DNA from: Nocardioides panzhihuensis
Lineage (GTDB): Bacteria; Actinomycetota; Actinomycetes; Propionibacteriales; Nocardioidaceae
Reading direction: 5' to 3'
Length of the DNA: 64,000 bases
NCBI RefSeq assembly: GCF_013408335.1
Contig: NZ_JACBZR010000001.1
Coordinates: 2,418,001 to 2,482,000 of the forward strand
The notes under the pieces were generated by a model. That model saw only the letters and a program-made list of their open reading frames with translations. It had not been told where the DNA came from and did not search any database. A program made the translations under genes and the position numbers. This document shows positions 22,385-61,100 of this stretch, one piece after another (position 1 is the stretch's first letter; each line of letters opens with the position of its first letter).

Positions 22385-22474
22385 TACAGGTACTGACCCG
22401 TGTTGGAGACCTGCTCGATGGAACGGCCGGGCTCGGTGCCCTGCTTGCCGGTGATGAGCGTGCAGATGAAGACG
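22385..22474 (-). repeat. ATPase 3'-end direct repeat, copy A (attachment-site-like)
   Basis: 90 bp matching the end of the proteasome ATPase gene (59338-59427) with one mismatch at 22464. It still encodes the C-terminal residues through [11 protein letters not shown], with the stop codon changed to TAA. No other part of the gene is nearby, so it is not a decayed full copy. It forms the left limit of the demethylase island. Confidence 0.9.
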
Positions 22475-22800
22475 GTCTGCATCAGGGCTGTTCTCGGCGT
22501 ACGCCAATCGTGGGGAGGTCGTGGGTCGTCGCCGAAATCCGGCCAAATGTGGACACCGTCGACAGCCATCCGACCGCTCCTTCGCGAGAGCCGTCATGCT
22601 TGCGGCGTGGCGCTTGTTCCCAGCTTCGCGCCGATCGGTCTGCCATCGCCGAGGTTCTGCACGTAGTGGTCCCGGTCGAGGTAGCGCGCCATGCCGATCC
22701 GCACCAGGGCCGAAATCAGACAGACCCTCCGGATGGACTGAGAACCCCATAGTCTCACGATCTCTGAGGTCTCAAGCCAAACTTGGCACACGGGCAGCCC
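22475..22800. other. Non-coding stretch right of copy A
   Basis: 326 bp between repeat copy A and the stop of the AraC gene. No supported gene or clear hairpin was seen. Overlapping short frames on both strands show no family resemblance. It may be a degraded island end. Confidence 0.5.
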
Positions 22801-23850
22801 TCAGCCGTGGCCCGTCTGTGACGCGCTCAGGGTCACGGAGGGCATGACGCCAAAGGTGGCCTTGTAGGAGGCGGCGAACCGACCCGTGTGGAAGAAGCCC
22901 CACCTGGTCGCGACCTCGGTGACTGTGGTTCCGTTGGTGGCGTCAGCGGCCAATAGGTCGCGATGTGCTCGCTCAAGCCGGGTCCGGCGCATGTACTGAT
23001 ACGGAGTTTCGTCGAGCACTCGCCGGAAGCCCAACTCGAGGGCACGGACGGTGATACCGACGTGGCGCGCCAACTCGTTGACGTTGAACACCTCGCCGTC
23101 CTCGCCGTCGATCAAGCGGATGGCTGACCGTACGGCACTGCTCGGGGCGGCTCGGAAGGTGCGTTGAGTCGGGGCGCTGAGATCGTGCTCCAACCCGAGT
23201 AGCGCAGCGCTCAGCGCGTGCTCGGATAGTTGATGGAGCAGAGCGTTCGGGACAACGGCGATGTCTTCGTACTGCCCAAGGATCTGAGCGAGCAGTCTGG
23301 CTGCGGCATGGACTGCATACCCCTCCTCGAGCGGCAACACCTGATGCACGAACCGCGGTGGCCGGCCCGACTCCCATTCACCAGTCAGCGCGCCCGCCGC
23401 GCGCGCTAGCGAGGAGGTCGTCATGCGCAGCATGAGGGCATCGCAGTCGGCGCTCCACTCGGCCCGGAAGTGCCCGTCTGCTGCGATCACCACCAAAGAC
23501 TCACCGGCCTTCGCTTCGACAACCTCACCACCTCGCCAGACGCGTATTGTCCCTGACAACGGGATCGTGACCCCGAGGTATCGAGAGTCCGCCTGCCTGT
23601 CGACGCGCACCTCCGCGCCGTAGCTCATCCGCCCGACCCCGACGGCACCGGTGTCGGCGTAATAAGCACGCGCATCGACGTTGTCGCGGTCGCCACGACG
23701 TACGCTCAGTCTGCCGGGCGCCATGAACTGCCTGATTCCCGCCTCCGCAACCGCGAGGTCGTAAGTCTCATAGCGCTTGTAGGCCGTGAGGGACTGCAAG
23801 ATGGCGTCTTCCGTGCTTGGCCGACCGGAGACGTCCAGCAAGGCGCTCAT
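22801..23850 (-). CDS. AraC-family regulator (first of two)
   Basis: 349 residues. The N-terminal half is a cupin-like sensor of the AraC-binding-like type (YLGVTIPLSGTIRVWRGGEVVEAKAGESLVV). The C-terminal half has two helix-turn-helix units: NVNELARHVGITVRALELGFRRVLDETPYQYM and VTEVATRWGFFHTGRFAASYKATFGVMPS. Last gene of a leftward operon headed by the first demethylase; its start overlaps the NmrA-like stop by 4 bp. Likely activator of the demethylase genes in response to an aromatic acid. It resembles the regulator at 35447. Confidence 0.85.
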   Translation of the reverse strand: MSALLDVSGRPSTEDAILQSLTAYKRYETYDLAVAEAGIRQFMAPGRLSVRRGDRDNVDARAYYADTGAVGVGRMSYGAEVRVDRQADSRYLGVTIPLSGTIRVWRGGEVVEAKAGESLVVIAADGHFRAEWSADCDALMLRMTTSSLARAAGALTGEWESGRPPRFVHQVLPLEEGYAVHAAARLLAQILGQYEDIAVVPNALLHQLSEHALSAALLGLEHDLSAPTQRTFRAAPSSAVRSAIRLIDGEDGEVFNVNELARHVGITVRALELGFRRVLDETPYQYMRRTRLERAHRDLLAADATNGTTVTEVATRWGFFHTGRFAASYKATFGVMPSVTLSASQTGHG

Positions 23851-24707
23851 GTCACACTCCCAAACCTCGGTGCGTGGTCATCCACGAATTTCGCCAGTCC
23901 GACTGGCGCATGCCCCGTCACCAGTTCTACATCGTGGGACACGAGCCCGACGGAATCGTCGCGGGCGTAGATGTCCATGAGCTCGACCACGTGCCTCTGT
24001 ATCCACTCGGGTGCGCCAGAACGTGTCGCGCTTGCGCGCAACTCCTCGAGGGTGAGCGGGGCGTGGTTGACCCGTTTCCCCAACCCTGCAGAGATGAGGT
24101 CGGCGATGTCGGCCGGCGTCAAGGATTCCGGTCCGGTGACCTCGTAGGAACGCCCGCGGTGGGCGTCAGGGTTGCGAAGTACGGCGGCCGCGACGGCCGC
24201 GATGTCTCGGGCATCGACCAGAGCAAGACGATGCTCCTGCAGCGCCATGGGGAGCTTGCCCGCGACGATCGCCGGAGCGAGGCCGAGCAGATTCTGCATG
24301 AAGTAGTTCGGTCGCAGGATCGTCGATCCCAATCCGGACCGCTCCAGGTGCGCCTCGATCTCGGCGTGCGCGCGACCAACCCAGCTGGGCTTGTCGCGGC
24401 CGGTTGCCGCGCTCCCGGCCGAGACCTTCACGACGTGACGTACACCAGCCTGAGCTGCCGCATCGATGAGTCCGCTCTGGTGCGCCGCCATCTCCGGGTG
24501 TTGGCTGCTGTTCAGGAACACCGTCTCGACACCCTTGAGTGCGGCCACGACCGAGTCGCGATCGCCCAGCTCCATCCTCACGAGGGACGGATCAGAACCC
24601 ACCAACGATTCCTGACGTGTCGTCGCCCGGAACGGCGTCCTCGCGGCGATCAGCCCCGACACGACGGACCGACCGATGGTGCCGGTCGCTCCAGTAACCA
24701 AGATCAT
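23847..24707 (-). CDS. NmrA-like NAD(P)-binding protein
   Basis: 286 residues starting MILVTGATGTIGRSVV, the NAD(P)-binding Rossmann motif of NmrA/quinone-reductase-like proteins. The middle HVVKVSAGSAATG and TILRPNYFMQNLL are typical of the group. It sits between a YciI-like gene (7-bp gap) and the AraC gene (4-bp overlap). It could reduce a quinone or ring-cleavage intermediate, or act as a redox sensor; the sequence does not decide. Confidence 0.75.
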   Translation of the reverse strand: MILVTGATGTIGRSVVSGLIAARTPFRATTRQESLVGSDPSLVRMELGDRDSVVAALKGVETVFLNSSQHPEMAAHQSGLIDAAAQAGVRHVVKVSAGSAATGRDKPSWVGRAHAEIEAHLERSGLGSTILRPNYFMQNLLGLAPAIVAGKLPMALQEHRLALVDARDIAAVAAAVLRNPDAHRGRSYEVTGPESLTPADIADLISAGLGKRVNHAPLTLEELRASATRSGAPEWIQRHVVELMDIYARDDSVGLVSHDVELVTGHAPVGLAKFVDDHAPRFGSVT

Positions 24708-24714
24708 GGCTGCG

Positions 24715-25110
24715 TCAGTCTCCCACGGAGGACTTGGTGGTCGTACCCTCGTTCAGGCACCAGGCTCGAACCTCGAACCGGCGCGCCCCTCGCGAGTGCA
24801 TCGGGTCAGCCTCCGCCAGCCGGACTGCCTCCTCGAGGCTCGCGGCGCGATAGACGAAGACACCCTCACCGTTCCACTCCGTCCCCTCAGGCGATGCCAG
24901 GGGCCCAGCTGCGAACATCACGCCACTGTCCTCGAGCTTCTTCTGGTACGGCAGGTGCTCCTCCAGTGCGTCCTCGATAGGTGCGAAGCCGTTGATCGGC
25001 GTAGACCGGATCAGGAACAGCTGCTCGGCGTGCAGATCGAGCTGGCGCGAGCGCTCCAGCAGCTGCTCCCACGTCATGCCGTCCAGTTGGCCGGCGGTGT
25101 CGTTGGTCAT
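24715..25110 (-). CDS. YciI-like protein
   Basis: 131 residues. The domain LFLIRSTPINGFAPIEDALEEHLPYQKKLEDSGVMFAAGPL, ending with GVFVYRAASLEEAVRLAEADPMH, matches the YciI dimeric alpha/beta barrel, whose conserved His lies in EEHLPY. YciI-like domains appear in aromatic pathways as small hydrolases or isomerases, but the activity is often unknown. It is 30 bp downstream of the epoxide-hydrolase-like gene. Confidence 0.7.
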   Translation of the reverse strand: MTNDTAGQLDGMTWEQLLERSRQLDLHAEQLFLIRSTPINGFAPIEDALEEHLPYQKKLEDSGVMFAAGPLASPEGTEWNGEGVFVYRAASLEEAVRLAEADPMHSRGARRFEVRAWCLNEGTTTKSSVGD

Positions 25111-25140
25111 TGAAGTGCCTCTCTTTGATGTTTGTTTCGG

Positions 25141-26247
25141 TCAGTGGCCGAGATCGCCGTTGACGAAGCTGCCGATAGTTTCGGCGGCGTCGTCCGGAGC
25201 TTCGAACGGCCAGAAGTGGCCGGCGTCGAACAGGTGCAGTCCACTGCCCTTCGGCAGCTTCGCGAGGACGTCGGGGTCGCTGTAGAACTCGTGCGGTTGA
25301 CCGGGGTCGTGGCTTCCCTGAAGGAGCAGCACCGGGCAGCGCCAGGCGGCGATGAGACGCGTTCGGCGCTCGATCCACTCCTGGCGGAAGGAGGAGGAGT
25401 GGAAGTAGCGAGGGACCGCCGTGCTGATGCCCGGGTATGCGAACTCGGCGATCGTCCGCTCGAGAAGCTTGTCGTCGACCGGTTTCGCACCGAGCGCCGT
25501 ATAGCCGACGATCGTGAACGTACGAGCGTCGCCGAGCACGAACGGCGCGGTGGGCGCCGTGAACATCTTCTCCTGCGGGTGAAGGCTGGGGTGGAGGTGC
25601 CACAGGTGCTGCTGGCCACGGCCGTACCGGATCACGCGGGTGCCCAGCTTGGCCACCATGTGGTCCGCCGGCGGCGTCCCGCGGTCGTGGGTGATGAGGC
25701 TGAAGCGGTCGACACCGATGGTGTCCAGCAGTGCGATCAGCTGATCGGCGACGCCCTCCTGTCGGTAGTCGCCGGTGCGCTTGTCCGACTGGCCGTATCC
25801 CTTGAGGTCGATGGCGATGCAGCGGTGCCGATCCGAGATCCCGGCCATCACGACGTGCCACTGGAACCACGAGTCCGGTACGCCGTGCAGGAAGACGACC
25901 GGATCACCGTCTTTCGGTCCGCTCTCGACGTAGTGCCATCGCACGCTCTCTCCGTCGCCAGGTGCATCAACGAAGTGGTGGGTGAACTCCACACCCCTGA
26001 GCTCCTCCACCTCGCCCTCACCGGAGGTAGGGGGCGCGGTTACTTTGGGGATGGCCACGAGGCGTCGAGCGATGGCTCCCATCGGAGCATCGGCTTCGAC
26101 GAAGTCCTCAGGGGTCGCCACCATCTTCGGCAGCAACTCGGGCAGTTCTTGCCACATGGCTGCCGCGGCGGCCAAGTGGGGCGCTACTCGCTCGGGCGGC
26201 TCGGTCCAGTCGTCTTCGGTCCTGGCGCTGGCGGGGGTGGTGGTCAT
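25141..26247 (-). CDS. Epoxide hydrolase/dehalogenase-like alpha/beta hydrolase
   Basis: 368 residues; MTTTPASART is the start because it overlaps the demethylase stop by 4 bp. A roughly 90-residue N-terminal extension precedes the fold. Oxyanion motif HGVPDSW (121-127), nucleophile in THDRG (Asp188, as in epoxide hydrolases and haloalkane dehalogenases rather than Ser), and catalytic His in DAGHFWPFE. It could open an epoxide or act on a halogenated or ester-bearing aromatic. Co-transcribed with demethylase 1, so its substrate is probably related to the methoxylated compound. Confidence 0.78.
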   Translation of the reverse strand: MTTTPASARTEDDWTEPPERVAPHLAAAAAMWQELPELLPKMVATPEDFVEADAPMGAIARRLVAIPKVTAPPTSGEGEVEELRGVEFTHHFVDAPGDGESVRWHYVESGPKDGDPVVFLHGVPDSWFQWHVVMAGISDRHRCIAIDLKGYGQSDKRTGDYRQEGVADQLIALLDTIGVDRFSLITHDRGTPPADHMVAKLGTRVIRYGRGQQHLWHLHPSLHPQEKMFTAPTAPFVLGDARTFTIVGYTALGAKPVDDKLLERTIAEFAYPGISTAVPRYFHSSSFRQEWIERRTRLIAAWRCPVLLLQGSHDPGQPHEFYSDPDVLAKLPKGSGLHLFDAGHFWPFEAPDDAAETIGSFVNGDLGH

Positions 26248-27626
26248 CGTCGTGCTCCTTGGCTTGTGCGGGGGCTCGTACGCACTGTCACGCGTACTTC
26301 GGTCTCGCGGTGAGGTTCGACCTGTGGTTTGACCCCGATGGAGGCCTCGTCGCCCCACACGAGAGTCAGTCGCTGTCCGTCCTCGGCCAGGCCGGCATCG
26401 ATGCTGGCCAGTGAGGTGACGTTGCCGTGGTTCATCGTGAACATCGGGTCCATCGCGACGCCGACGCCCGTTCTGTCGAGCAGCACCCGGTCATAGTGGA
26501 TGAGGGAATAGCCACCGGCGGGCAGGCTCAGGTACTTGGCCCCGCGACCGCTGGCGAACAGGCTGCTCGTCAGGACGTGGCCGGTGTCTCCCGCGTCCCA
26601 GTCGAGCCACACCTTCCGGCGAGGCGGTGCGACAGCGATCTGCTCGAGCGCCTCGCGACCGATGAAGTCGTGGTCGAAGCTGACCACGCGGCCATAACCC
26701 AGGTCGTACGGCGTGAGGTAGTAGTCCTCGATGGAGTCGGATACGAAGCTTCCTCCGAGCGAGGCGTGCGCCTCGAAGCCGTGCGCGGGGAGGTGTTCCC
26801 GATAGGCACGCATGTCGTCCCCGGTGTAAATCGCTGGCAGGGGGCGGGCGATCCATCCGGACTCGTTGGACGTGGTCGGGTAGGACACCGCGCCGCCCTG
26901 GAGCATGCCGAGCCCCGAGCCTGCCTCGAGCAGTGCTTCCTTGACCGGTGCTGAATGTTCCCGTGGCCCGAAGATCTCCAGGCCGGTGTGCTCCTGGCCG
27001 GGGATGCCAACCATGGTGTGGTTGAGCGCCCGGACCGTCACTCCGGCGATCTGGAACTCGCCGATGTTGAAGAACTTCACCGGTCCGAGCGTCCCGCCTG
27101 ACGCTTTCCGGACGATCTCGAGGGCGGCGGGTCCCTGCACCTGGTAGCGGAACAACAGTCGCTCCCGGGGGTTGATCGGGCTGGCGTCGTCCCGCTCCAC
27201 GTCGACCTTGTAGTCGCCGGTCTCGGCGTGGAACTGCACCCAGTTCGCGGCCACTGGTGAACCGACCAGGGCGTACTCCTCCTCGTCGAGTCCGAAGAGG
27301 ATGGCGTCGCCAATGACATGGCCGCGCGGGTTCGTCGCCACGAACTGCTTGGCCTTGTCCCTCCCGAAGGTGCGGAACGAGTTCACGCCTACCTCGGAGA
27401 ACAGCCGTTTCGCGTCGGGGCCACGGAAGTACACGTCGCTCATGTGGAAGGACTGATCGAAGAAGATCGCGGATTCCCTCCACACCCGCTGTTCGTCACG
27501 CCAGTTCGCGTACTCCATCTGCGGAATCGGGAACTGGTACGGGCCGCGGGCATCGGCGCGCAGCATCTTGGCGGGATTTCCGCCGCTGCGGTCGATGGCT
27601 TGCTCGAGGTTGGGGGTGGTCATCAT
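26244..27626 (-). CDS. THF-dependent O-demethylase, paralog 1 (LigM/DesA-like GcvT family)
   Basis: 460 residues of the aminomethyltransferase (GcvT) fold. It closely follows LigM/DesA vanillate and syringate demethylases: PNLEQAIDRSGGNPAKML, FPIPQMEYANWRDEQRVWR, FDQSFHM (His61, aligning from memory with LigM His60), VNSFRTFGRDKAKQ, YPTTSNESGWIARPLPAIYTGDD and LGYGRVVSFDHDFIGREAL. LigM Tyr31 appears to be Phe here. It would move a methyl group from a methoxy-aromatic to tetrahydrofolate, giving 5-methyl-THF and a phenol. It heads a leftward operon and is divergent from the MetF-like gene. More similar to paralog 3 than to paralog 2. Confidence 0.88.
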   Translation of the reverse strand: MMTTPNLEQAIDRSGGNPAKMLRADARGPYQFPIPQMEYANWRDEQRVWRESAIFFDQSFHMSDVYFRGPDAKRLFSEVGVNSFRTFGRDKAKQFVATNPRGHVIGDAILFGLDEEEYALVGSPVAANWVQFHAETGDYKVDVERDDASPINPRERLLFRYQVQGPAALEIVRKASGGTLGPVKFFNIGEFQIAGVTVRALNHTMVGIPGQEHTGLEIFGPREHSAPVKEALLEAGSGLGMLQGGAVSYPTTSNESGWIARPLPAIYTGDDMRAYREHLPAHGFEAHASLGGSFVSDSIEDYYLTPYDLGYGRVVSFDHDFIGREALEQIAVAPPRRKVWLDWDAGDTGHVLTSSLFASGRGAKYLSLPAGGYSLIHYDRVLLDRTGVGVAMDPMFTMNHGNVTSLASIDAGLAEDGQRLTLVWGDEASIGVKPQVEPHRETEVRVTVRTSPRTSQGARR

Positions 27627-27744
27627 CGCGTTCCTTCGTCAGGCGAATGCACGTGTGCCACCCGAATGTAGGAGCGCTTCAGCGGGCCGGATAGCCACGG
27701 ACCGAACCGATTGGGTGCACTTCGCGAACCCTCGAAACCGGCTT

Positions 27745-27775
27745 CGCCAGCCGGCGCAGAGACCTTCGGCTGGCG
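27745..27775. promoter_or_regulatory. Inverted repeat between divergent demethylase and metF-like genes
   Basis: Perfect 9-bp arms CGCCAGCCG and CGGCTGGCG with a 13-nt spacer, in the 241-bp gap between the two divergent starts. A TAGCGT box at 27801-27806 is a plausible -10 for the rightward operon, putting the repeat where an activator could bind. It could equally be a hairpin in RNA. Confidence 0.35.
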
Positions 27776-27867
27776 GCTCGCAGAGACGTCTCCCCACACC
27801 TAGCGTTTCTCGTCATCGTCAACCAGCGGGCCCTCTCCTGAGCGGCCCCGATCCATAAGGAGACTCG

Positions 27868-28719
27868 ATGGCCACCGACCAGCCCACAACCTCATCAGAG
27901 GTAGACGGCCGGCTTCTCCAGATGCTGACCGACGCCACGATGGAGGTCATCCCGTTGAAGGGCGGACCAGAGCAGATCCTGGCAACGTCCCCGGGTGCGA
28001 CCGTCGCGGTGACGTGTTCCCCGAAGTTCGGTCTGAGTCGCACGCTGGAGCAGTGCGAAGTGGCGGCGAGCGCAGGGCGACGGGTCGTTCCCCACATCGC
28101 GGCCCGCATGGTCGAGGATCGCGCAGCGCTTCGTGACGCCGTGCGACGGGTCGCAGACCTCGGGGTGACCGACCTCTACGTGATCGGTGGCGACGCCGCC
28201 GCTCCCATCGGCCGCTATGGCGAGGCGGGACAGCTGCTCGACGACCTGGCGGAGATCGAGCATCCGTTCACCAGGATCGGGGTCGGCTGCTATCCCGAGG
28301 GCCACCCGCACATCGACGACGACCGCCTGTGGGAGGCGCTGCTACGCAAGCAGAGCTCCGCCACCTACATGGTCAGCCAGATGTGCTTCGACGCCGAGGC
28401 GCTCACGACGTGGCTGGCTCAAGCGCGTGCACGGGGCGTGACGTTGCCGCTCCGGGTCGGCATTGCCGGTCCCCTCAAGCTCGCCAAGCTCACCGAGCTG
28501 TCGCTCCGCATCGGAGTCGGCCAGTCGTTGCGCTACCTCTCCAAGCAGCACGGACTGGTCGGCAACGTACTTCTCGGCCGAACCTACGACCCCGTTCCGC
28601 TGATCCGCTCTGTCGTCTCTGACAAGCCGGGCACTGACATCGAGGGCCTCCACGCCTTCACCTTCAACCAGGTGCCCGTCTTCCGGGCCTGGGCCAAGAC
28701 GTACGGAGCAATGTCATGA
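27868..28719 (+). CDS. metF: Methylenetetrahydrofolate reductase-like protein
   Basis: 283 residues of the MTHFR barrel: EVIPLKGGPEQIL, VAVTCSPKFGLSRTLE, VTDLYVIGGDAAAP, GVGCYPEGHPHIDDD, SQMCFDAEALTTW and VGIAGP. Such enzymes interconvert 5-methyl- and 5,10-methylene-THF. In a demethylase island the physiological direction should be oxidation of the 5-methyl-THF made by the demethylases. First gene of metF-purU-folP, each overlapping the next by 4 bp. Clustering of metF with THF-dependent demethylases is known from syringate and dicamba degraders. Confidence 0.88.
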   Translation: MATDQPTTSSEVDGRLLQMLTDATMEVIPLKGGPEQILATSPGATVAVTCSPKFGLSRTLEQCEVAASAGRRVVPHIAARMVEDRAALRDAVRRVADLGVTDLYVIGGDAAAPIGRYGEAGQLLDDLAEIEHPFTRIGVGCYPEGHPHIDDDRLWEALLRKQSSATYMVSQMCFDAEALTTWLAQARARGVTLPLRVGIAGPLKLAKLTELSLRIGVGQSLRYLSKQHGLVGNVLLGRTYDPVPLIRSVVSDKPGTDIEGLHAFTFNQVPVFRAWAKTYGAMS

Positions 28720-29570
28720 GCGAACTCGTCCTCACCCTGTCCTGCCCGGACCGCCCTGGCATCGTTCAGGCGGTCTCCACCTTCGTGACCGCTCACGGCC
28801 TCAACATCGTCGAGACCGAACAGTTCGGTGACCGCGACGAAACACGCTTCTACATGCGTGTCGCCGCGGAGAGCCTCGATGACGTGTCGCCCGACGCCGA
28901 CTCGCTGCGCGCCGACTTCGAGATCGTGGCTCGTGACTTCGCCATGGACTGGCGCCTGGTCGACTCCCAGCAGCGCCCGCGAATGCTGATCATGGTCAGC
29001 AAGTTCGGTCATTGCCTCAGCGACCTGCTCTACCGCGTACGCATCGAACAGCTCGCCGCGGACGTGGTCGCAGTCGTCTCCAACCATCCCGATTGCAGGG
29101 ATATGGTCCAAGCCGCCGGCGTCCCCTTCGTGCATCTCCCGGTTGATGCCGGGTCCAAGGCGGACGCCGAGGACAAGCTGATGCAGCTCGTCGACCAGGA
29201 GCAGGTGGACCTGGTGGTGCTCGCCCGGTACATGCAGATCCTCTCGCCCGAGCTCTGCGACCGGCTGAGCGGCCGCGTCATCAACATCCACCACTCGATG
29301 CTGCCCAGCTTCAAGGGCGCCCGGCCCTACCAACAGGCGTACGACAGGGGCGTCAAGCTCGTCGGCGCGACCGCCCACTACGCCACCTCGGACCTCGATG
29401 AAGGCCCGATCATCGAGCAGGAAGTGCAGCGGGTCGACCACACGATGGACGCCGCGGCCCTCACGGCGCTTGGCCGCGACACCGAGTGCCTGGCCTTGTC
29501 GCGGGCAGTGCGCTACCACCTCGAGAACCGAGTCATGGTCCACGGCCGCAAGACGGTCGTCCTGAAATGA
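28716..29570 (+). CDS. purU: Formyltetrahydrofolate deformylase
   Basis: 284 residues. An N-terminal ACT domain (about 1-75, starting LSCPDRPGIVQAVS) precedes a formyltransferase domain with INIHHSMLPSFKGARPY and LDEGPIIEQ, which carry the conserved Asn, His and Asp. It hydrolyses 10-formyl-THF to formate and THF, releasing the carrier and disposing of the methyl carbon as formate. This closes the cycle methyl - methylene - methenyl/formyl - formate expected for a demethylation pathway. ATGA overlaps on both sides. Confidence 0.9.
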   Translation: MSELVLTLSCPDRPGIVQAVSTFVTAHGLNIVETEQFGDRDETRFYMRVAAESLDDVSPDADSLRADFEIVARDFAMDWRLVDSQQRPRMLIMVSKFGHCLSDLLYRVRIEQLAADVVAVVSNHPDCRDMVQAAGVPFVHLPVDAGSKADAEDKLMQLVDQEQVDLVVLARYMQILSPELCDRLSGRVINIHHSMLPSFKGARPYQQAYDRGVKLVGATAHYATSDLDEGPIIEQEVQRVDHTMDAAALTALGRDTECLALSRAVRYHLENRVMVHGRKTVVLK

Positions 29571-51930: not shown

Positions 51931-52002
51931 GTCGGCTCCTCTGAGTTGGATCGGAACGGGTCGGATGTGTCGGACCGGCCGGGGTGCCGACCGCCGAGTT
52001 CG

Positions 52003-52090: not shown

Positions 52091-52126
52091 GCGCCCCGGC
52101 CTCATCCGGCGACCTATCCTGACCAG

Positions 52127-53644: not shown

Positions 53645-53655
53645 CCGCGCCGGCG

Positions 53656-53721
53656 TAGGGGAAATCCTCATCGTCCGTCGAGGAACTCTCGATTCCGCGT
53701 CAGAGCGACACTGCCTACGGT
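53656..53721 (+). promoter_or_regulatory. Promoter of the flavin reductase operon with shared operator
   Basis: TAGGGGAAATCCTCA at 53656-53670 is followed 58 nt after its start by CCTACGGT, whose TACGGT (53716-53721) serves as -10. Spacing equals that of the other operator-bearing promoters (57 nt). An AGGAGG ribosome site at 53740 leads to the TTG start at 53752. Confidence 0.7.
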
Positions 53722-53751
53722 CGAGGTATCCGACCCGGTAGGAGGCCCAGG

Positions 53752-54279: not shown

Positions 54280-54566
54280 GCCGAAGAAGCGCGATGATGA
54301 TGGAGCCGGGGACCCGGATGACGCTGATGTGCTACACCGACACCCACGGGTACGGCTGGCAGCACGTGGACCTCTTCGTCCACGACGCCTCCGGCCACGA
54401 GCTCGACTGGGTGCACTGGGAAGTCTCCGGCGACGGACCCGAGATCGCCGACAGGGTCACCTCCCGAGTCGAGCCGTCCCTGCGACGCACCTCCGAGTGG
54501 CGCCATGCCGTGTCCGCCAGCGGGATGGACTACTGGACCGCCGACGCCAGCTGGGAGGACGCATGA
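54276..54566 (+). CDS. Small conserved-context protein, function unknown
   Basis: 96 residues rich in Trp, His and Asp (TLMCYTDTHGYGWQHVDLFVHDASGHELDWVHWEV, TSEWRHAVSASGMDYWTADASW). It overlaps the flavin reductase and the amidase by 4 bp each, so it is co-translated with both. I do not recognise a family. It could be a small auxiliary of the pathway comparable to iacI; that is only a position-based guess. Confidence 0.6.
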   Translation: MSRRSAMMMEPGTRMTLMCYTDTHGYGWQHVDLFVHDASGHELDWVHWEVSGDGPEIADRVTSRVEPSLRRTSEWRHAVSASGMDYWTADASWEDA

Positions 54567-55831
54567 GCACGTCGCTGTGGCAGCCCTGGTCGCTGCGTGA
54601 CCTCGTCTCCGAGCTGGCCCGAGGCGCCACCACGCCGGCCGAGGCGATGGTTCGCTCCGCCGAGCGGATCGCGGTGACAGAACCCGAGCTCAACGCCTGG
54701 GTGGTCCGCCAGGACCCGGCCCCGGGAACCGGTGTGGGGCCGCTGGCGGGCGTACCGCTGGGCGTCAAGGACATCATCGACGTCGGCGGGCTGCCGACCA
54801 GATGCGGCTCCGGGCTCCGCGCGGACGAAACCGCCGCCGAGGAGGACGCGGCGATCGTCGCAGAGTGGCGCCGGACCGGTGTGGTGCCGATGGGCAAGAC
54901 GGTCACCACCGAGTTCGCCTTCTTCTCCCCCGGGCCCACGGCCAACCCGGTCGCGACCGACCACACGCCGGGCGGCTCCTCCAGCGGCTCGGCAGCGGCC
55001 GTGGGTGCCGGACAGGTGCCGCTCGCTCTGGGGTCGCAGACGGCCGGTTCGGTAACCCGCCCGGCGGCGTACTGCGGGGTCGCGGCCCTGGTGATGACCA
55101 AAGGTCGCTTCCCGGTCGACGGCGTCACCGGGCTGAGCCCGAGCCTCGACAGCCACGGCGTGTACGCCGCCACGGCAGGTGACCTCGCTCTGGCCTGGTC
55201 CGCGCTCAGCGGCGGTGCGGACGTCGCCCGACCCGGCGCGCCCCGGCGAGGCGAGCCGTTTCGCGCGCTGCTCTGGTCGGCCTCCCCGATCGGTGTCCTG
55301 GACCCGACCATGCGGGCGGCCCTGGACACCACCCGGGCCGCGCTGGAGGCGCGCGGCGCCATCGTCCGCGACTTCCCCGAGGAGCAGTTCGTCGCCGACC
55401 TCGCCGCTGCGCACCCCGTGGTCATGGCGTACGAGGCGGCCCGCGAGCGCACCGCGGAGCTGGCCGCGGCCGACCAGCTGTCCGAGCCGCTGGCCGGGCT
55501 GCTGCGTACGGGGGCCGAGACCAGCCGGAGCGACTACGAGGCGGCCCTCGGCCTGATCGCGCGGGGCCGTGAGCGAGTCGCCGAGCTTCTTGCGGCGCAC
55601 GACGTCGTGGTCGGTGCCGCAGCGCCTGGCCCCGCTCCCCGGGGGCTCGGCGCGACCGGAGACCCGGTGCTGAGCCGGCCGTGGCAGGCGCTCGGCCTGC
55701 CCGTCGTGACAGTGCCCGGACTGCGGGATGCGGCGGGCATGCCGCTCGGTATCCAGGTGGTCGGCCACCGACTCGGTGAGGACCACCTCCTGGCCGCAGC
55801 GTGCACCGTCGAGCAAAGCCTGGTGTGCTGA
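54563..55831 (+). CDS. iacH: Amidase signature enzyme (IacH-like)
   Basis: 422 residues. Catalytic Lys in LGVKDIIDVGG (about residue 73), Gly/Ser core GGSSSGSAAAV (cis-Ser) and nucleophile region GSQTAGSVTRPAAYCGV. The length is near the usual 430-470. It hydrolyses an amide, in auxin metabolism possibly indole-3-acetamide or an amino-acid conjugate to free indole-3-acetate. Last gene of the flavin reductase operon and unlike the amidase at 15340. Confidence 0.8.
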   Translation: MSTSLWQPWSLRDLVSELARGATTPAEAMVRSAERIAVTEPELNAWVVRQDPAPGTGVGPLAGVPLGVKDIIDVGGLPTRCGSGLRADETAAEEDAAIVAEWRRTGVVPMGKTVTTEFAFFSPGPTANPVATDHTPGGSSSGSAAAVGAGQVPLALGSQTAGSVTRPAAYCGVAALVMTKGRFPVDGVTGLSPSLDSHGVYAATAGDLALAWSALSGGADVARPGAPRRGEPFRALLWSASPIGVLDPTMRAALDTTRAALEARGAIVRDFPEEQFVADLAAAHPVVMAYEAARERTAELAAADQLSEPLAGLLRTGAETSRSDYEAALGLIARGRERVAELLAAHDVVVGAAAPGPAPRGLGATGDPVLSRPWQALGLPVVTVPGLRDAAGMPLGIQVVGHRLGEDHLLAAACTVEQSLVC

Positions 55832-55879
55832 TCCTTGGCATATGGCCCGGGGCACACCACGAGGGATGGGTGAAATACG

Positions 55880-56599
55880 ATGACGAAACGGCCGGGCAAC
55901 AGCAACGACGTACCGTCGACGACCATCCCCACGAGCGAGGCGACACCGATGAGCACCACTGAACTCCCCCGGCCGGACGTCGCCGCCACGCGCTCTCCGG
56001 TCGTCCACATCGTCGACGACGACCACGACCTTCGACAGTCGTTGGTCTTCCTGCTGGAGACCGTCGGCATCGAGGCGCTGACCTATCCCGACGCAACCGC
56101 GTTCCTCGACGAGTACGACGCGACCGAACCGGCGGTCCTCATCGTCGATGTCAGGATGCCCGGGGTCAGCGGCTTCCAACTGCAGGAGACCTTGCGCCAG
56201 CAGGACTATCCAGCGCCAGTCATCTTCTGCTCCGCGCACGGTGACGTGCCCATGTCGGTGCGGGCGATGCAGCACGGGGCCGTCGACTTCTTGGAGAAGC
56301 CCTACGACTCCCAGCAGATGCTGGAGGTCGTCCAGGAGCAGCTTCTCGAGGCAAGCAGACGGTTCGCCGCCGATGCCGAACGACGCGAGGTGCAGGCCCG
56401 GGTCGACCAGCTCACCCCGCGCGAGCTCGAAGTCCTACGCCTGGTCATCGACGGTCTACCGAGCCAACACATCGCCCGTGAGCTCGGCACCAGCGTCAAG
56501 ACGGTCGACGTCCACCGAGCCCGGATCAAGGCGAAGACCTGCTCCGACAGCCTCGGCACTCTCGTGCGCGACGTGCTCTTCTACCAGGTGACCATCTGA
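55880..56599 (+). CDS. FixJ/NarL-type response regulator
   Basis: 239 residues. After a variable N-terminus (1-35) the receiver domain has acidic DDD, phospho-acceptor Asp90 in IVDVRMPG, SAHGD and Lys in LEKPYD. The C-terminal LuxR-type helix-turn-helix is LTPRELEVLRLVIDGLPSQHIARELGTSVKTVDVHRARIKAK. It is the likely partner of the kinase at 52127 and the likely ligand of the four shared operators. The start at 55880 is the first of two; ATG 55949 is possible. Confidence 0.87.
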   Translation: MTKRPGNSNDVPSTTIPTSEATPMSTTELPRPDVAATRSPVVHIVDDDHDLRQSLVFLLETVGIEALTYPDATAFLDEYDATEPAVLIVDVRMPGVSGFQLQETLRQQDYPAPVIFCSAHGDVPMSVRAMQHGAVDFLEKPYDSQQMLEVVQEQLLEASRRFAADAERREVQARVDQLTPRELEVLRLVIDGLPSQHIARELGTSVKTVDVHRARIKAKTCSDSLGTLVRDVLFYQVTI

Positions 56600-56606
56600 G
56601 CTCGGC

Positions 56607-57197
56607 TCAGGGCGCCATCAGCACGGACGCCGACGGATAGAACTCCGCCCAGGTCGGTGCGAGCGGCGCGATGAAGACGTTCTCGGTGCGGGTGCGGCTG
56701 ATCCGCCAGGTCCCCTCGACGCGACGGAAGGCGTTGTTCAGACGGCTCGAGCGCAGCAGTGCCCTGCCATCGGAGAAGAGCCACGGCTGAACATGGATCC
56801 ACTGGCCCTCGGCGTCCTCACCATCGACGTGGATCTGCTCGGAAGTCAGGTAGTGGGCGTTGAGCAGCAGGGCCGGATCGTGCTTCTCCCCCCAGAACCT
56901 CTCGAAGTGTGCACGCACCGCAGCCTTGCCCTCGGCCTTGCCGAACTGTCCGTCGTAGTACTCGCCGACGCCCTCCCAGACCGCGTCCTCGGTGTAGAGA
57001 TCCATGATCAGGTCGACGCGCTGAGCATCGTCGCTGACGCCGAACTCCGGGCAGGGCGTGTCGCACAGGAACATGTAGCGCGCCTGCAGCCGGCGGATCT
57101 CCGCCTCCGACTCGAGGGCCTCCACCCGGCGCAGCAGAGCGGTGATCGTGTCAGTGAACTTCTCGGTGATCGTCTCGGTGTCGGGGGTGCTGGTCAT
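56607..57197 (-). CDS. SnoaL-like (NTF2-fold) protein
   Basis: 196 residues. After a short coiled helix (ITALLRRVEALESEAEIRRLQARYMFLCD) comes a SnoaL-type domain: LIMDLYTEDAVWEGVGEYYDGQFGKAEGKAAVRAHFERFW and TSEQIHVDGEDAEGQWIHVQPW, ending RVEGTWRISRTRTENVFIAP. Such proteins act as isomerases, hydratases or oxygenase-like helpers. Its promoter carries the shared operator, so it belongs to the same regulon; it is another candidate for an iacI-like role. It converges with the regulator gene (7-bp gap). Confidence 0.75.
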   Translation of the reverse strand: MTSTPDTETITEKFTDTITALLRRVEALESEAEIRRLQARYMFLCDTPCPEFGVSDDAQRVDLIMDLYTEDAVWEGVGEYYDGQFGKAEGKAAVRAHFERFWGEKHDPALLLNAHYLTSEQIHVDGEDAEGQWIHVQPWLFSDGRALLRSSRLNNAFRRVEGTWRISRTRTENVFIAPLAPTWAEFYPSASVLMAP

Positions 57198-57236
57198 GTT
57201 CTCTCCTCGGACTGATCCGTACGGCAGGGCACCTTC

Positions 57237-57301
57237 ACGCTAGGAAGCACGAGCTCCCGGCTCCAGTGGCAATGGCCGCAGTTCGATGAGGGAATCCCCT
57301 A
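57237..57301 (-). promoter_or_regulatory. Promoter of the SnoaL-like gene with shared operator
   Basis: Operator TGAGGGAATCCCCTA at 57287-57301, conserved middle element at 57259-57281 (core GGCCATTGCCACTGG on the minus strand) and -10 TAGCGT at 57242-57237. The operator-to-CCTA distance is 57 nt, identical to the transporter promoter. The two promoters are alike over about 65 bp although they are 10 kb apart. Confidence 0.72.
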
Positions 57302-57332
57302 TCCGCCGCCTCGGAGTGACCGAGGCGGCGGA
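57302..57332 (-). terminator. Hairpin terminator after the tannase-family gene
   Basis: Perfect 13-bp stem (57302-57314 with 57320-57332; arms start TCCGCCGCCTCGG) with a 5-nt loop, 14 nt beyond the stop of the tannase-like gene and abutting the next operator. No U-tract, as is common in high-GC genomes. Confidence 0.75.
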
Positions 57333-57346
57333 CGCCCTGCTGACCG

Positions 57347-59008
57347 TCAGTTGCTCCGCTCCCGGGCCTGCATGCGCTGCTTTTCGCGTGCCACGTCCTT
57401 GGCGAAGTCGCCCCAGTCGTTCTCACGCCGGAAGCTGCTGGCCTCGGTGGTGGGCCCGGCTCCGTCGTAGCCGGCGATCTGGGGGTAGGGGCACAGAGGC
57501 CTCGTCATCACGACCCGGTTCTCCTGCCGGTCGTCCTGGTACTTGGTGGCGACCATCTGCTTCGGCGCGATCCCCTGCTCGACCCATGCCCGCACGGCGG
57601 ACAGGGCGTCGAACGAGTTGGGCCCCATACCCCCGGTGACATGTCCGCCGCCAGGGATCATGAAGAGGCGGTAGAACTCCTGGACGTCTCGCAGGGCCGA
57701 GCGCACGGTGGAGCCGTCCCGCTCGAGGAGGACCCGCGTGTAGTACTCGATCGGGAGACTGCCCGACTGGAACGGGTCGCTCCATCCCTGGGTCATGATC
57801 AGCTTGCCGCCCCGCTCGTCGAACTTCGAGAGATCGGCACGCGTGGGATCGATCTTGGGGCTCAGCTTCTCCTCCACCAGAGCCACGTCCTCATCCCAGT
57901 CGAAGCTGCGCCAGTCCCACTCGGGATCGTCGAACACGGCCCTGCCGAACAGCGCCTGCGGATAGGAGACGAGTTCCTGTCGCTCCGCTGCGAAGTTCCA
58001 TGCCGCCTCGCTGCCGTAGGCGAAGCCCGGATAGAGGTGCTCACCGCTCCCCTGGTTGGTGACCGCGGTGTAGACATGTTCCGCTGTCCTGACCTGCTCC
58101 GCCGTCAGACACCCCGTGCTCGTCCCGGGACGGCACTCCAGCCGCTTGACGTTGTAGTGACAGTCTCGTGGATCGTTGAGGAACGGATCGCTCGCGACCC
58201 CGTCCCGGCCGCCGCATGCGGCCAGCACGGCGTCATTGAGGAGCTTGCGGTCATCGCTGTCGAGCGCACCTTTCGGACGGTCCGCGAGGCGCTGCGCAGT
58301 CCACAGAACCGCCATCATCACGTGGCTGTAGTCCATGCCCGGGCTGTGCGAGACGATGCCGTCGTAGTCGTCCGGGAAGAACTCTGCCTGGCCCATCGCC
58401 TGCCGGCCGCCGGTCGAGCCACCTTCGAAGTAGGAGAACTTCGGCGCCTTCTCGTGGTACGCGGTCAGGATCTGCTTGGCACGCAACGTCATCAGGTGGA
58501 TCGAGGTACGCCCCCACATCTCCAACTGGGCCGGGTTGCTGATCCAGGAGTTGGCCGAGTCGGACTTGGAGTGGCCCGTGTCGGTGGACGCTGTCGCATA
58601 GCCCTTCGCGAGAGCCGGAGCCATCGAGTCGTACCTGATGTTTCCGGCGAAGCCGCCGTTACCCACTCCCAGGAATCTCTCGTTCCATGTGGCCGTCGGC
58701 ATCCACACCTCGAAGTTCAGGCTCGGAGCGACTCTCGCGGCCACCCGACAGAACTCGGGCAGATCGCGATGGACGGTGCCCTCGGCGTCCACGAAGTCAC
58801 CGGCGGGAACGAGCTCGCCCGCCGTGATCTCGGTGTCGGGCACCGAGAGTTCGGTCATCTCCTCGCAGCGAGCGCCGCCGGCGTCGGTGTCGACATCGGC
58901 AGCGCTGGGCGCTGCCCCGGCGATCTGGAGACTGAGTGCGAAAAGAGACACAATCCCGACGAGCACACGCAGCGTGCCCCCGGATCTCCTCGGCCGTCGA
59001 GCAGTCAT
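57347..59008 (-). CDS. Tannase/feruloyl esterase family protein, secreted
   Basis: 553 residues; start MTARRPRRS followed by a twin-Arg-like basic stretch and a hydrophobic signal segment ending AGAAPSA, so probably exported. Tannase-family marks: FCRVAARVAPSLNFEVWMP, GNGGFAGNIRYDSM, ASTDTGHSKSD, nucleophile region EGGSTGGRQAMGQAEFFPDDYDGIV (Ser), paired Cys in CGGRDGV and CHYNVKRLEC, TQGWSDPFQSG (Asp) and GGGHVTGG (His). It hydrolyses aromatic acid esters such as ferulates or gallates outside the cell. Function within the auxin-like cluster is unclear; ester-linked indole or phenolic acids are possible. Confidence 0.82.
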   Translation of the reverse strand: MTARRPRRSGGTLRVLVGIVSLFALSLQIAGAAPSAADVDTDAGGARCEEMTELSVPDTEITAGELVPAGDFVDAEGTVHRDLPEFCRVAARVAPSLNFEVWMPTATWNERFLGVGNGGFAGNIRYDSMAPALAKGYATASTDTGHSKSDSANSWISNPAQLEMWGRTSIHLMTLRAKQILTAYHEKAPKFSYFEGGSTGGRQAMGQAEFFPDDYDGIVSHSPGMDYSHVMMAVLWTAQRLADRPKGALDSDDRKLLNDAVLAACGGRDGVASDPFLNDPRDCHYNVKRLECRPGTSTGCLTAEQVRTAEHVYTAVTNQGSGEHLYPGFAYGSEAAWNFAAERQELVSYPQALFGRAVFDDPEWDWRSFDWDEDVALVEEKLSPKIDPTRADLSKFDERGGKLIMTQGWSDPFQSGSLPIEYYTRVLLERDGSTVRSALRDVQEFYRLFMIPGGGHVTGGMGPNSFDALSAVRAWVEQGIAPKQMVATKYQDDRQENRVVMTRPLCPYPQIAGYDGAGPTTEASSFRRENDWGDFAKDVAREKQRMQARERSN

Positions 59009-59283
59009 GGTTCCACCCTTCGAGGTTTGCGAGCCCGGGCCGCGGCATGCTTGCGCCCAGCTCCTACGTTCACCAGTCCCGTTGTCGGCTGAGCGGTCGG
59101 CGCTGACCAACTGATGTCGCTTCAGAATATGAAGGTGATCACCCTGGTCATACGGGAGAAATCCTTACCTGAGTAAGGCCCTCGCACCGGCGGCGCGGCA
59201 GATCACCGACGCTCACCCGAACGGGAACTGTCGTCTCGCGCTCTGGCCGACAACACTCGACACCGCACATCCCAACACCGAAT
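59009..59283. promoter_or_regulatory. Upstream region of the tannase-family gene
   Basis: Leftward promoter candidates are a -10 TATTCT at 59129-59124 and a weak -35 about 16 nt upstream. The spacer holds the palindrome GGTGATCACC (59134-59143), a possible repressor site. A degenerate match to the iac operator (TAAGGATTTCTCC on the minus strand, 59167-59155) lies further upstream at non-standard spacing. Nothing else recognisable is present. Confidence 0.4.
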
Positions 59284-59317
59284 CGGCCTGCCACCCGTAT
59301 CCACAGGTGACAGGCCG
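59284..59317 (-). terminator. Hairpin terminator of the proteasome ATPase gene
   Basis: 12-bp stem with one G-U pair in the minus-strand transcript (59284-59295 with 59306-59317) and a 10-nt loop, 19 nt after the ATPase stop. Its spacing from the coding end equals that of the hairpins at repeats A, B and C. Confidence 0.7.
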
Positions 59318-59336
59318 AGTTCGGCGACGTAGAGGG

Positions 59337-61100
59337 CTACAGGTACTGACCCGTGTTGGAGACCTGCTCGATGGAACGGCCGGGCTCGGTGCCCTGCTTG
59401 CCGGTGATGAGCGTGCGGATGAAGACGATCCGCTCGCCCTTCTTGCCGGAGATGCGGGCCCAGTCGTCGGGGTTGGTGGTGTTGGGGAGGTCCTCGTTCT
59501 CCTTGAACTCGTCCACGCAGGCCTGGAGCAGATGCTGCACCCGCAGGCCCTTCTGGTTCTGGTCCTGCTTGGAGTCGAGGAAGTCCTTGATGGCCATCTT
59601 CTTGGCCCGGTCGACGATGTTCTGGATCATCGCGCCGGAGTTGAAGTCCTTGAAGTAGAGGATCTCCTTGTCACCGTTGGCGTAGGTGACCTCCAGGAAG
59701 CGGTTCTCCTCGGACTCGGTGTACATCCGCTCGACGGTGGTGCGGATGAGGCCGTCGACGGTCGCCTGACGGTCGCCACCGAACTCGGCGACGTCGCCGG
59801 GGTGCAGGGGCAGGTCGGGCACGAGGTACTTCGTGAAGATGTCGCGAGCGCCCTCGGCGTCGGGACGCTCGATCTTGATCTTCACGTCGAGCCGGCCCGG
59901 GCGCAGAATCGCCGGGTCGATCATGTCCTCACGGTTGGAGGCACCGATGACCAGGACGTTCTCCAGGGCCTCGACACCGTCGATCTCGGAGAGGAGCTGC
60001 GGCACGATCGTGTTCTCGACGTCGGAGGAGACGCCGGAGCCACGCGTGCGGAACAGGGAGTCCATCTCGTCGAAGAAGACGATCACCGGGGTGCCGGCCG
60101 CGGCCTTCTCACGAGCACGCTGGAAGACCAGGCGGATGTGGCGCTCGGTCTCGCCGACGTACTTGTTGAGAAGCTCGGGGCCCTTGATGTTGAGGAAGTA
60201 GGACTTCCCGTCAGCACCGGTCTTGGCGGCGACCTTCTTCGCCAGGCTGTTGGCGACAGCCTTCGCGATCAGGGTCTTTCCGCAGCCCGGAGGGCCGTAG
60301 AGCAGCACTCCCTTGGGCGGCTTGAGCCGGTGCTCGATGAAGAGCTCGGGATAGAGGTAGGGAAGCTCGACCGCGTCCTGGATCTGCTCGATCTGGCCGG
60401 CGAGGCCACCGATCGACTCGTAGGCGATGTCGGGCACCTCCTCCAGGACGAGCTCCTCGACCTCGGACTTCGGGACCTTCTCATAGACATAGCCGCTGCG
60501 TGGCTCCAGAAGAAGTGAGTCGCCAGCACGGAGGGTCTCGTTGAGAAGTGGGTCGGCGAGACGTACGACTCGCTCTTCGTCGGCGTTGGCGATGACCAGG
60601 ACGCGCTCGCCGTCGGCGAGCAGCTCCTTGAACATCACGACCTCGCCGACCTTCTCGTACTCCATCGCGGCGACGACGTTGAGCGCCTCGTTGAGCATGA
60701 CCTCCTGGCCATAGCGCAGCTCGTCGAGGTCGACGTTGGGCGATGCGGTCACCCGGAGCTTGCGCCCACCGGTGAACACGTCGATCGAGTCGTCCTCGTT
60801 GCGCTCCAGGAATGTGCCGAAACCTGCTGGCGGCTGTGCCAGCCGGTCGACCTCTTCCTTCAGCTTGATGATCTGGTCGCGGGCGTCCCGAAGCGTCACG
60901 GTGAGTCGCTCGTTCTGCGACGTCACGGCGGCCAGGGAGCGCTGCGCGTCTGCGAGCCTCGCCTCCAGGCCACGCGAAGATCCGGGCATCTCGGTCAGCC
61001 TGTGCCGCAGGTCGGTCACCTCAGCTTCGAGGAAACGGACATGACTCTCGAGCTCCTCGGGGCTGCGCCCCTCGGACTGGAATCCATCGGATGTCGACAT
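59337..61100 (-). CDS. mpa: Proteasome-associated AAA+ ATPase (Mpa/ARC)
   Basis: 587 residues; ATG 61100 has AGGAGG at 7 nt. The N-terminal coiled coil (about 12-88) binds pupylated substrates; tandem OB domains (about 95-225) follow; the AAA+ module has Walker A GPPGCGKT (269-276), Walker [13 protein letters not shown] and [20 protein letters not shown]. The C-terminus SNTGQYL docks into the 20S proteasome. The protein unfolds Pup-tagged substrates. It is intact, although its last 90 bp are the site of the repeats. The usual downstream dop-pup-prcBA genes are not in the window. Confidence 0.96.
59338..59427 (-). repeat. ATPase 3' end, reference copy of the direct repeat
   Basis: The last 90 bp of the functional ATPase gene, encoding the end through [11 protein letters not shown] and the TAG stop (the repeat begins at its second base). 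Copies A, B and C match this segment. All four are on the minus strand, as expected for repeated integration into one gene end. Confidence 0.9.

Follow-up and report, generated by a model that had tools for sequence, protein, structure and literature searches.

Direct copies of the proteasome ATPase gene 3' end border a probable stack of integrase-less islands in Nocardioides panzhihuensis

A 58-kb insertion between mpa (arc), the gene of the proteasomal AAA ATPase, and its native neighbour in Nocardioides panzhihuensis contains three direct copies of the mpa 3' end in addition to the intact gene end. Within the 64,000-nucleotide stretch analyzed (the window), these 58 kb are probably several islands in tandem, each acquired on its own, with the mpa 3' end as the one site of entry and reciprocal recombination as the route. 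We read the stack as tandem site-specific accretion of integrase-less, CIME-like islands, the enzyme having been lost or having acted in trans.

Copies of the mpa 3' end and the segments beside them

The mpa gene (59337–61100, minus strand) encodes a protein of 587 aa that was identified by its proteasomal ATPase OB domains and AAA domain (Pfam PF17758, PF16450 and PF00004) and that ends in ...SNTGQYL. On the plus strand, opposite to mpa coding, copy 1 (22385–22474) is 89/90 identical to the gene end with G to A as the sole change, copy 2 (42216–42304) carries a 1-bp deletion that shifts the frame and one substitution, copy 3 (45180–45206) is a 27-bp core matching at 26 of 27 positions, and the fourth copy is the intact mpa 3' end itself (59338–59427). 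All four are in the same orientation, with starts 19,831, 2,964 and 14,158 bp apart. Genome search and sequence comparison thereby re-found what a sequence-only reading had described, namely four direct copies at these coordinates and identities with segments of about 19.8, 3.0 and 14.2 kb between them. Searching the 90-bp end against the whole genome (6.31 Mb, three contigs) returned four matches at E ≤ 0.001, all in the window, and no fifth. The 22-bp core with up to three mismatches occurs at three sites in the window, a count that leaves out the gapped copy 2, and at none in 100 dinucleotide shuffles. The displaced copies have decayed (Arg to Cys in copy 1, a frameshift in copy 2), whereas the one still attached to mpa is undamaged. 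Position 91 is the first base at which both copies 1 and 2 depart from mpa, and the DNA beyond it is unlike.

Synteny with near kin places the insertion at about 1354–59337. Because it starts at about 1354, a further 21-kb segment lies to the left of the copy array. This segment, E1 (1354–22384, 21.0 kb, no strand assigned), is absent between the native neighbour and mpa in relatives G011, G051, G235 and G196, and no mpa copy was found at its left edge. Copies flank segments E2, E3 and E4, and the stack runs 21 kb further left than the array. By Pfam, E1 encodes an HxlR regulator, an NmrA-like protein, a peptide ABC transporter, an S9 peptidase/beta-lactamase-fold hydrolase, an amidase, an acyl-CoA synthetase, a thiolase and an SDR. 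E2 (22475–42215, 19.7 kb) holds a tetrahydrofolate-dependent O-demethylase-like cluster (Pfam and NCBIfam) with three GcvT/LigM/DesA-like genes, an MTHFR-like gene, formyl-THF deformylase, FolD and a pterin-binding enzyme, together with an amidohydrolase, an MFS transporter, an extradiol-type dioxygenase, an FAA hydrolase, acetoacetate-CoA ligase and AraC regulators. An E2 marker gene was matched in one of 215 Nocardioides genomes, its own (E ≤ 1e-60), from which E2 looks to be of foreign origin. E3 (42305–45179, 2.9 kb; Pfam and homologues) has two minus-strand genes, a predicted lipoprotein (42488–43654) and a SUKH/SMI1 protein (43710–44615, Pfam). Pfam, NCBIfam and PADLOC gave no match for the lipoprotein-like ORF, which, by its sequence motif and an alignment, starts with a lipoprotein signal. 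E4 (45207–59337, 14.1 kb; Pfam) encodes an MFS transporter, a ferredoxin reductase, an SDR, Rieske ring-hydroxylating dioxygenase alpha and beta subunits, an acyl-CoA dehydrogenase, a PAS kinase with a response regulator, a flavin reductase, an amidase and a tannase/feruloyl esterase. The cargo is mostly catabolic, and a search for cargo homologues did not locate a donor. Beyond families like AraC, SDR and MFS, we noticed no gene that the segments have in common.

A strong hairpin (fold z −3.5 to −7.1) lies directly past the mpa stop codon at each copy, a feature absent from the earlier account. These terminator-like arms, all on the minus strand, are T(E1) by copy 1 (22319–22384, fold z −4.5), T(E2) (42150–42215), T(E3) (45114–45179) and T(E4) (59272–59337, fold z −7.05), the last being the present mpa terminator. 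T(E2) matches in type the terminator that follows mpa in G015, and T(E3) is near-identical to that of G196. T(E1) with copy 1 is 85% like an orphan copy in G235 over 202 bp. A strict hairpin pattern has only six sites in the genome, three of them in this region. A model of ten arms found matches in 196 of 215 genomes (E ≤ 0.01; training genomes included), among them T(E1), itself part of the training set; beyond seven training-genome loci it returned 23 loci, 10 of which abut an intact tRNA gene. We therefore rejected the hairpin as an element-specific feature, as similar hairpins follow tRNA genes, and regard it as a common terminator type.

The mpa locus in related genomes

The sister genome G196 (Nocardioides sp. 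MAG-46, a metagenome assembly) has a single element at this place, in the order native neighbour, native terminator, decayed mpa 3' copy (42647–42726, many changes), SUKH stretch (93% to window 43662–45206), new terminator and intact mpa. The two copies are in attL/attR configuration around an insertion that supplied mpa with a new terminator; the terminators have thus been swapped, and the displaced end keeps the native one. The element is without the E3 lipoprotein ORF, yet both ends are present; the two parts of E3 occur separately at the mpa of kin, the SUKH part in G196 and the lipoprotein part in G099. The left ends of E3 and the G196 element are alike for only about 20–45 bp beyond the copy, where 5 of 100 shuffles did as well. 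At one synonymous-looking site, the displaced copy of G196 has the allele of G235, G011, G051 and G015. Taking base changes as proof that the mpa 3' end was replaced was rejected as weak, as the window tests were unconvincing (best pair, 75 of 1,634 windows as divergent).

Empty or nearly empty sites are found in G235, G051 and G011, the distance between mpa and the point where the alignment of the neighbour protein stops being 72 bp in G235 and 78 bp in G051. In the stretches around mpa of the island-free relatives G011, G051, G001 and G235 there was no second mpa copy. The sequence-only reading had named the same copies at the same places in such relatives, or repeats scattered away from mpa, as findings that would refute it. 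One copy of the latter kind exists, in G235, 1.09 Mb from its mpa; the four of N. panzhihuensis are all in the window. To the left of the core, the E1 and G235 right ends resemble each other over about 105 bp, with no further cargo similarity found, and one of 15 inner-arm pairs (window 42305 with G235), aligned over 93 bp, scored better than any of 100 shuffles.

Three further relatives, G172, G015 and G099, have insertions of 5.5–35 kb at the same place. No second mpa copy was found with those of G172 and G099, and the best candidate in G015 scored barely above background (35 versus 33 in 20 shuffles). The locus is variable in kin, with insertions in N. panzhihuensis, G196, G099, G015 and G172 and repeats only in the first two. 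The suggestion that the mpa 3' end is an attachment site is supported by the single element of G196, by the empty sites and by the single mpa end around mpa in the island-free relatives. It is limited by the insertions with no clear second copy, by the failure to find a recombinase (below), by the G235 copy far from mpa and by the 21 kb of the stack that lie beyond the copies.

Duplication of the mpa end is rare in Nocardioides. An extra long copy in clear context occurs in 3 of 215 genomes (N. panzhihuensis, G196 and G235). Apart from N. panzhihuensis, 26 genomes had at least two matches, two of them (G196 and G235) with such a copy; the search took the best four matches per genome, so that decayed copies can be missed, and all 26 were re-searched. 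In G047 and G222 the second matches lie on other contigs of incomplete assemblies. Across the order, with the best two candidates per genome, two mpa copies (E ≤ 1e-7) were present in N. panzhihuensis alone (391 genomes searched, 235 with a match). Its inner arms were also unique to it among 391 genomes of the order, a sample outside which G196 falls, and the exact inner-arm pattern matched only MAG-46 among GTDB contigs, a set that perhaps does not hold N. panzhihuensis. No near-full mpa copy was found on phages, plasmids or viral contigs. Phage matches (25 records, E ≤ 1) covered no more than 48% of the 90-bp end and, where annotated, fell in unrelated genes, and the plasmid set gave mpa-like matches in an 11.85-Mb Nonomuraea replicon and in a Tsukamurella plasmid record with a whole arc gene amid housekeeping-type genes.

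Recombinase searches and routes of entry

Between 1354 and 59337, 42 island genes were called, and scans for protein families (41 genes by Pfam, the gene at 36570–37928 by NCBIfam) revealed no recombinase among them. Nor did a six-frame tyrosine-recombinase HMM search of the mpa–dop stretch in 78 genomes, which were chosen among the nearest matches rather than randomly; in G053 it covered 14.8 kb beside mpa, as dop is on another contig. For the island, these scans agree with the earlier statement that no recombinase is in the window. The serine recombinases of seven genomes lie on different contigs or at a long distance from mpa, about 280 kb in the closest case (G172). N. panzhihuensis itself has 20 tyrosine recombinases above the cut-off and 3 serine recombinases, and near its integrases, in 23 loci, core matches were of only 10–11 bp. 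No integrase-bearing element with the same att site was found in 215 Nocardioides genomes, phages, plasmids and viral contigs, searched as partial sets with the best few candidates per genome. The same genome does contain a canonical element, with a duplicated tRNA-Gly (78/78, 43.9 kb apart), whose anatomy is that of the mpa islands plus an integrase.

With no recombinase found, site-specific recombination is inferred, as are the circular intermediate and the order of entry. An incoming circle would carry an mpa-matching copy (last codons, stop and terminator) and recombine reciprocally with the mpa 3' end. With each entry, mpa would gain the 3' end and terminator of the element, and the old 3' end would stay behind as a copy, free to decay and possibly a target again. 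The recombinase, presumably site-specific, would have been lost after entry or supplied in trans by another element. The left edge of E1 is accommodated by this stack model only with a later deletion.

Another route, which we consider improbable though the strongest competitor, is RecA-dependent crossover within the short mpa homology, with circles or fragments from other Nocardioides, bearing an mpa 3' end and the cargo next to it, and no dedicated recombinase. It would suit islands in which no recombinase was found, at the end of a conserved gene where near-identity extends to as much as 90 bp, and the repeat-less DNA in G172, G015 and G099 fits whole-island replacement by double crossover. 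It sits poorly with the departure of copies 1 and 2 from mpa at the same base, with the mere 27 bp shared by copy 3 and with element ends that are in some cases alike beyond the match, and it still requires an origin for the first circle with its trimmed 90-bp gene end.

More speculatively, and in our estimate also unlikely, the mpa end could be a docking site of recombinase-free catabolic cassettes that share only their ends and depend for movement on a single enzyme encoded at another place. The shared ends would comprise the hairpin, about 20 bp, the mpa 3' end and a short inner arm, and the cell would stack pathways at mpa. The ATPase requires its last three residues to dock to the proteasome core, so that under such a scheme the site would be kept intact and common.

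It is quite improbable that an undescribed recombinase in the cargo escaped the profile searches. The E3 lipoprotein-like ORF without a family match and some unnamed short ORFs leave room for one, but that ORF has a lipoprotein signal and is missing from the G196 element that keeps both ends, and the segments share no noticed candidate beyond the families named above. An assembly or scaffolding artefact is very unlikely: 90-bp repeats can mislead short-read assembly and G196 derives from a metagenome, but the copies differ mutually, the N. panzhihuensis contig is 6.13 Mb long and the E3–mpa junction recurs in the separately assembled G196.

Returning to the stack of islands, a bacterial proteasome ATPase gene would join the gene ends that apparently serve as attachment sites, and catabolic blocks could accrete by a conserved gene that is left unbroken. 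Close kin form a natural series of empty site, one element and stack, a route to the missing recombinase. Discovery of an enzyme that acts on this gene end would give actinomycetes a new insertion tool.

Relation to known integrative elements

Several element classes do not fit. An autonomous ICE, AICE or prophage does not fit scans without integrase, transfer or phage genes; an integron, with intI and single-gene cassettes followed by attC sites, does not fit a region in which no integrase was found and whose segments span 3–21 kb, the longer of them having numerous genes in both orientations; and a Tn7-like transposon does not fit scans without a transposase family or repeats of 27–90 bp in place of a short target duplication. 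The kind of arrangement is familiar from PAISt, which also uses a protein-gene end; to our knowledge, neither mpa as a target nor a recombinase-free stack with four copies has a precedent. In the openly accessible literature we found no report naming mpa/arc as an attachment site.

A close parallel is to cis-mobilizable elements (CIMEs) and their tandem accretion, as in ICESt1-related Streptococcus islands. These are bounded by att sites, have no integration or transfer genes and lie one behind another where their target gene ends; in accretion, the incoming element uses the att site containing the gene end (PMC5704250). Likewise, mpa-end copies flank E2, E3, E4 and, on both sides, the G196 element, though not the left edge of E1, and family scans of the 42 genes gave the mpa islands no integration or transfer genes of their own. 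In contrast to CIMEs, the target here is mpa and the host an actinomycete, the searches gave no autonomous ICE or IME that shares the site, and the islands are known from sequence alone.

PAISt of Streptomyces turgidiscabies is a modular island at the bacA 3' end with one internal and two flanking direct-repeat sites, and related islands became fixed after erosion of integrase and site (PMC4057263). Like the mpa islands, it lies in an actinomycete and abuts a protein-gene 3' end, but its site is an 8-bp palindrome and its tyrosine recombinase, intSt, has been tested, whereas the mpa islands have copies of 27–90 bp and no enzyme was found. In additive flexible genomic islands, cassettes are joined singly at a tRNA gene end and marked by direct repeats of that end, and the Actinomarinales text does not contain the word 'integrase' (PMC4119200, PMC7771536). 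Both systems have cassettes that vary among kin at a single conserved locus and a gene-end repeat as boundary, although additive islands, so far as described there, target tRNA genes and the mpa islands a protein gene. Finally, the Rhodococcus thc herbicide-degradation module adjoins dop and a truncated proteasome operon (PMC12915292). It too is a catabolic block beside proteasome-pathway genes, but there the operon is relocated and truncated, and the passages that describe it do not mention mpa-end repeats (PMC12915292).

Copies of the mpa 3' end and their background

The proteasome ATPase gene mpa/arc (59337–61100, minus strand) was identified from its Pfam domains, and its protein ends in SNTGQYL. 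The three further copies of its end claimed by the sequence-only reading were recovered at the same places and in one orientation, matching the intact 90-bp end joined to the gene at 59338–59427: copy 1 at 22385 (89/90), copy 2 at 42216 (one deletion, one substitution) and copy 3 at 45180 (26/27 over the first 27 bp). Searching the whole genome with the 90 bp at E ≤ 0.001 returned these four matches and no fifth, and such copies appeared in 0 of 100 shuffled sequences. The stop codon is TAG at mpa and TAA at the three other copies. Copies of the mpa end decay once displaced: only the one joined to mpa is intact, copy 1 carries an Arg to Cys change, copy 2 a frameshift, and the displaced copy in G196 (Nocardioides sp. 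MAG-46) many changes with loss of the stop region.

Of 215 Nocardioides genomes, 205 were matched by a 96-bp query taken from copy 1, and a second long copy in clear context was present in our genome, G196 and G235 (two incomplete assemblies not counted). In G235 the mpa site is empty, and the extra copy (C1:2015438–2015582) lies 1.09 Mb from mpa with an element-type hairpin arm, flanked by catabolic genes and an AraC-type regulator gene, as named by eye; it may mark a second target site or stem from rearrangement of a stack. Scattering of the repeat away from mpa, which the sequence-only reading had taken to speak against an attachment-site array, is seen in that one copy and not in our genome, where all copies lie in the window.

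Across 884 kb of our genome, 11 direct-repeat pairs (25–400 bp, at least 88% identity, 0.5–70 kb apart) comprised one tRNA-Gly pair, two of mpa copies and eight that were dispersed or simple repeats or unexplained. The tRNA-Gly pair (78/78, 43.9 kb apart, C1:2121492–2165464), one copy of which adjoins a tyrosine integrase (2163174–2164148), is an ordinary island and a positive control recovered by the same method. In two unexplained pairs outside or beside called genes, C1:2827529–2829923 (116 bp, 97%) and C1:2860491–2866858 (83 bp, 89%), no tyrosine recombinase was found between the copies. A palindromic dispersed family, CTGGTCGAGCCGCCGGAGC...GTGTCGAGACCAACAC, REP-like by its look, occurs at C1:2179746, 2212884, 2528797, 2555483, 2563666, 2768362 and 2773473.

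Insertion at the mpa–dop locus and the sister genome

Homology to related genomes (~84–97% nucleotide identity) runs through the native neighbour genes, stops at about 1353–1359 and picks up again at the mpa end, near 59338. Between the last aligned part of the neighbour protein and mpa lie 72 bp in G235, 78 bp in G051, 167 bp in G011 and 57,992 bp in our genome, where dop, beyond the native neighbour, lies 62 kb from mpa. Among 77 genomes measurable for both genes (ours, 75 other Nocardioides and one of the same order, chosen non-randomly from the nearest matches), the median mpa–dop distance is 1.2 kb; four exceed 10 kb (G099, 11.3 kb; G015, 16.9 kb; G172, 39.5 kb; ours, 61.9 kb), and the locus is therefore insertion-prone in this clade. 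In G026 and G053, mpa and dop fall on separate contigs, which may conceal more repeats or islands. Among eight relatives compared, only the lipoprotein gene (G099) and the SUKH gene (G196) of our cargo recur beside mpa at high identity, and matches in G172 reach just 29–36%.

G196 is the sister of our genome in the mpa-body tree (100/99 support, 12 rows). Its order is neighbour gene, native terminator with the same tail as in the empty G235 site, decayed mpa 3' copy, a SUKH stretch 93% identical to 43662–45206, then the terminator found at 45114–45179 of the window, and intact mpa. This layout is what gene-end integration leaves, with the old end and terminator displaced outward and the gene now carrying a different pair. 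Compared with G196, segment E3 of the window (42305–45179) has a different left terminator and an extra lipoprotein gene, with E4 (45207–59337) intervening before mpa; likeness of the two left ends past the copy spans just ~20–45 bp. If E3 came first, later elements would have used both the displaced copy and mpa as entry points, an order that we infer.

A strong hairpin directly follows the stop at every window copy (z −3.5 to −7.1). Those of E1 (1354–22384), E3, E4, G196, G172, G011, G099 and the G235 orphan copy are similar, and a second type occurs in E2 (22475–42215) and G015. Similar hairpins also stand behind tRNA genes in the genus; they are therefore terminators of a common type and not proof of an element. 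One locus of G149 (C69:1–2230) combines a similar hairpin with a partial tRNA-Met 3' end and an adjoining tyrosine integrase, the latter two named by eye; it repeats the layout of the mpa copies and, unlike them, includes the enzyme. The right ends of E1 and G235 are alike for ~105 bp left of the 27-bp core that starts the mpa end, with no similarity found past that point. For copies 1 and 2 alike, the first difference from mpa falls at position 91. Inner arms (the DNA on the other side of each copy) were compared in 15 pairs, of which one (ours at 42305 with G235) scored above all 100 shuffles, and four more were equalled by 2–5 of 100. Together these sequence likenesses weakly point to a defined element end.

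Cargo and the recombinase search

The scanned island genes encode regulators, transporters, catabolic enzymes and a SUKH protein. E2 has the look of a cluster for tetrahydrofolate-dependent O-demethylation and recycling of one-carbon units; three GcvT-fold genes score best to syringate/vanillate O-demethylases, though below curated cut-offs. A pair of diverged O-demethylase-like genes facing opposite ways (26244–27626 and 36570–37928) forms long inverted repeats, and a third relative lies at 33004–34458. An E2 marker gene had no match at E ≤ 1e-60 in the other 214 Nocardioides genomes (two candidates scored per genome). E4 carries a tannase/feruloyl-esterase family gene and a Rieske dioxygenase, relatives of which, at 99% identity, lie on other contigs. 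Lignin- and tannin-derived aromatics are likely substrates of the cargo. A 1091-aa protein at 5902–9177 combines a prolyl-oligopeptidase part of family S9 with one of beta-lactamase fold.

Family scans found no recombinase or transposase in the 42 genes called between 1354 and 59337 by a custom gene caller (41 scanned by Pfam, one by NCBIfam) or in further ORFs, short ones being covered in part. All 20 tyrosine recombinases of the genome above the Pfam cut-off lie outside the window, in keeping with the earlier claim that it holds no recombinase; near them, no core match exceeded 11 bp. Five of equal profile score, at four places on C3 (an 83-kb contig) and at C1:5839583, are possibly a recombinase-based mobile element. 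A profile built from 15 distinct tyrosine recombinases of our genome, run in six frames over the mpa–dop stretch of 78 genomes (279 kb), hit controls only, and the serine recombinases of seven genomes were located elsewhere, none at mpa. A near-full mpa-end copy was absent from the phages, plasmids and viral contigs searched, apart from mpa-like sequence in two plasmid-set records, one an 11.85-Mb Nonomuraea replicon and the other a Tsukamurella plasmid record that includes an arc gene.

Mechanism and known parallels

Tandem site-specific accretion of islands, with their own integrase lost or never present, is the best reading and a fairly probable one; stacking mediated by RecA is its main rival, which we consider unlikely. 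New to us are the choice of mpa as target and a set of four copies without a recombinase; no report of mpa/arc as an attachment site was found in the literature searched, in keeping with the sequence-only reading, which had called such a target not widely described. The kind of arrangement is already known. Integrases targeting protein genes are not unusual in themselves (PMC12884075). Additive flexible islands give the same picture as the mpa stack, but at tRNA genes (PMC4119200, PMC7771536). Cis-mobilizable elements are described as arising through decay and then offering the next element a docking site (PMC5704250). PAISt of Streptomyces is reported to occupy the 3' end of a protein gene; it carries three att repeats and its excision is modular, while integrase erosion fixed related islands in place (PMC4057263).
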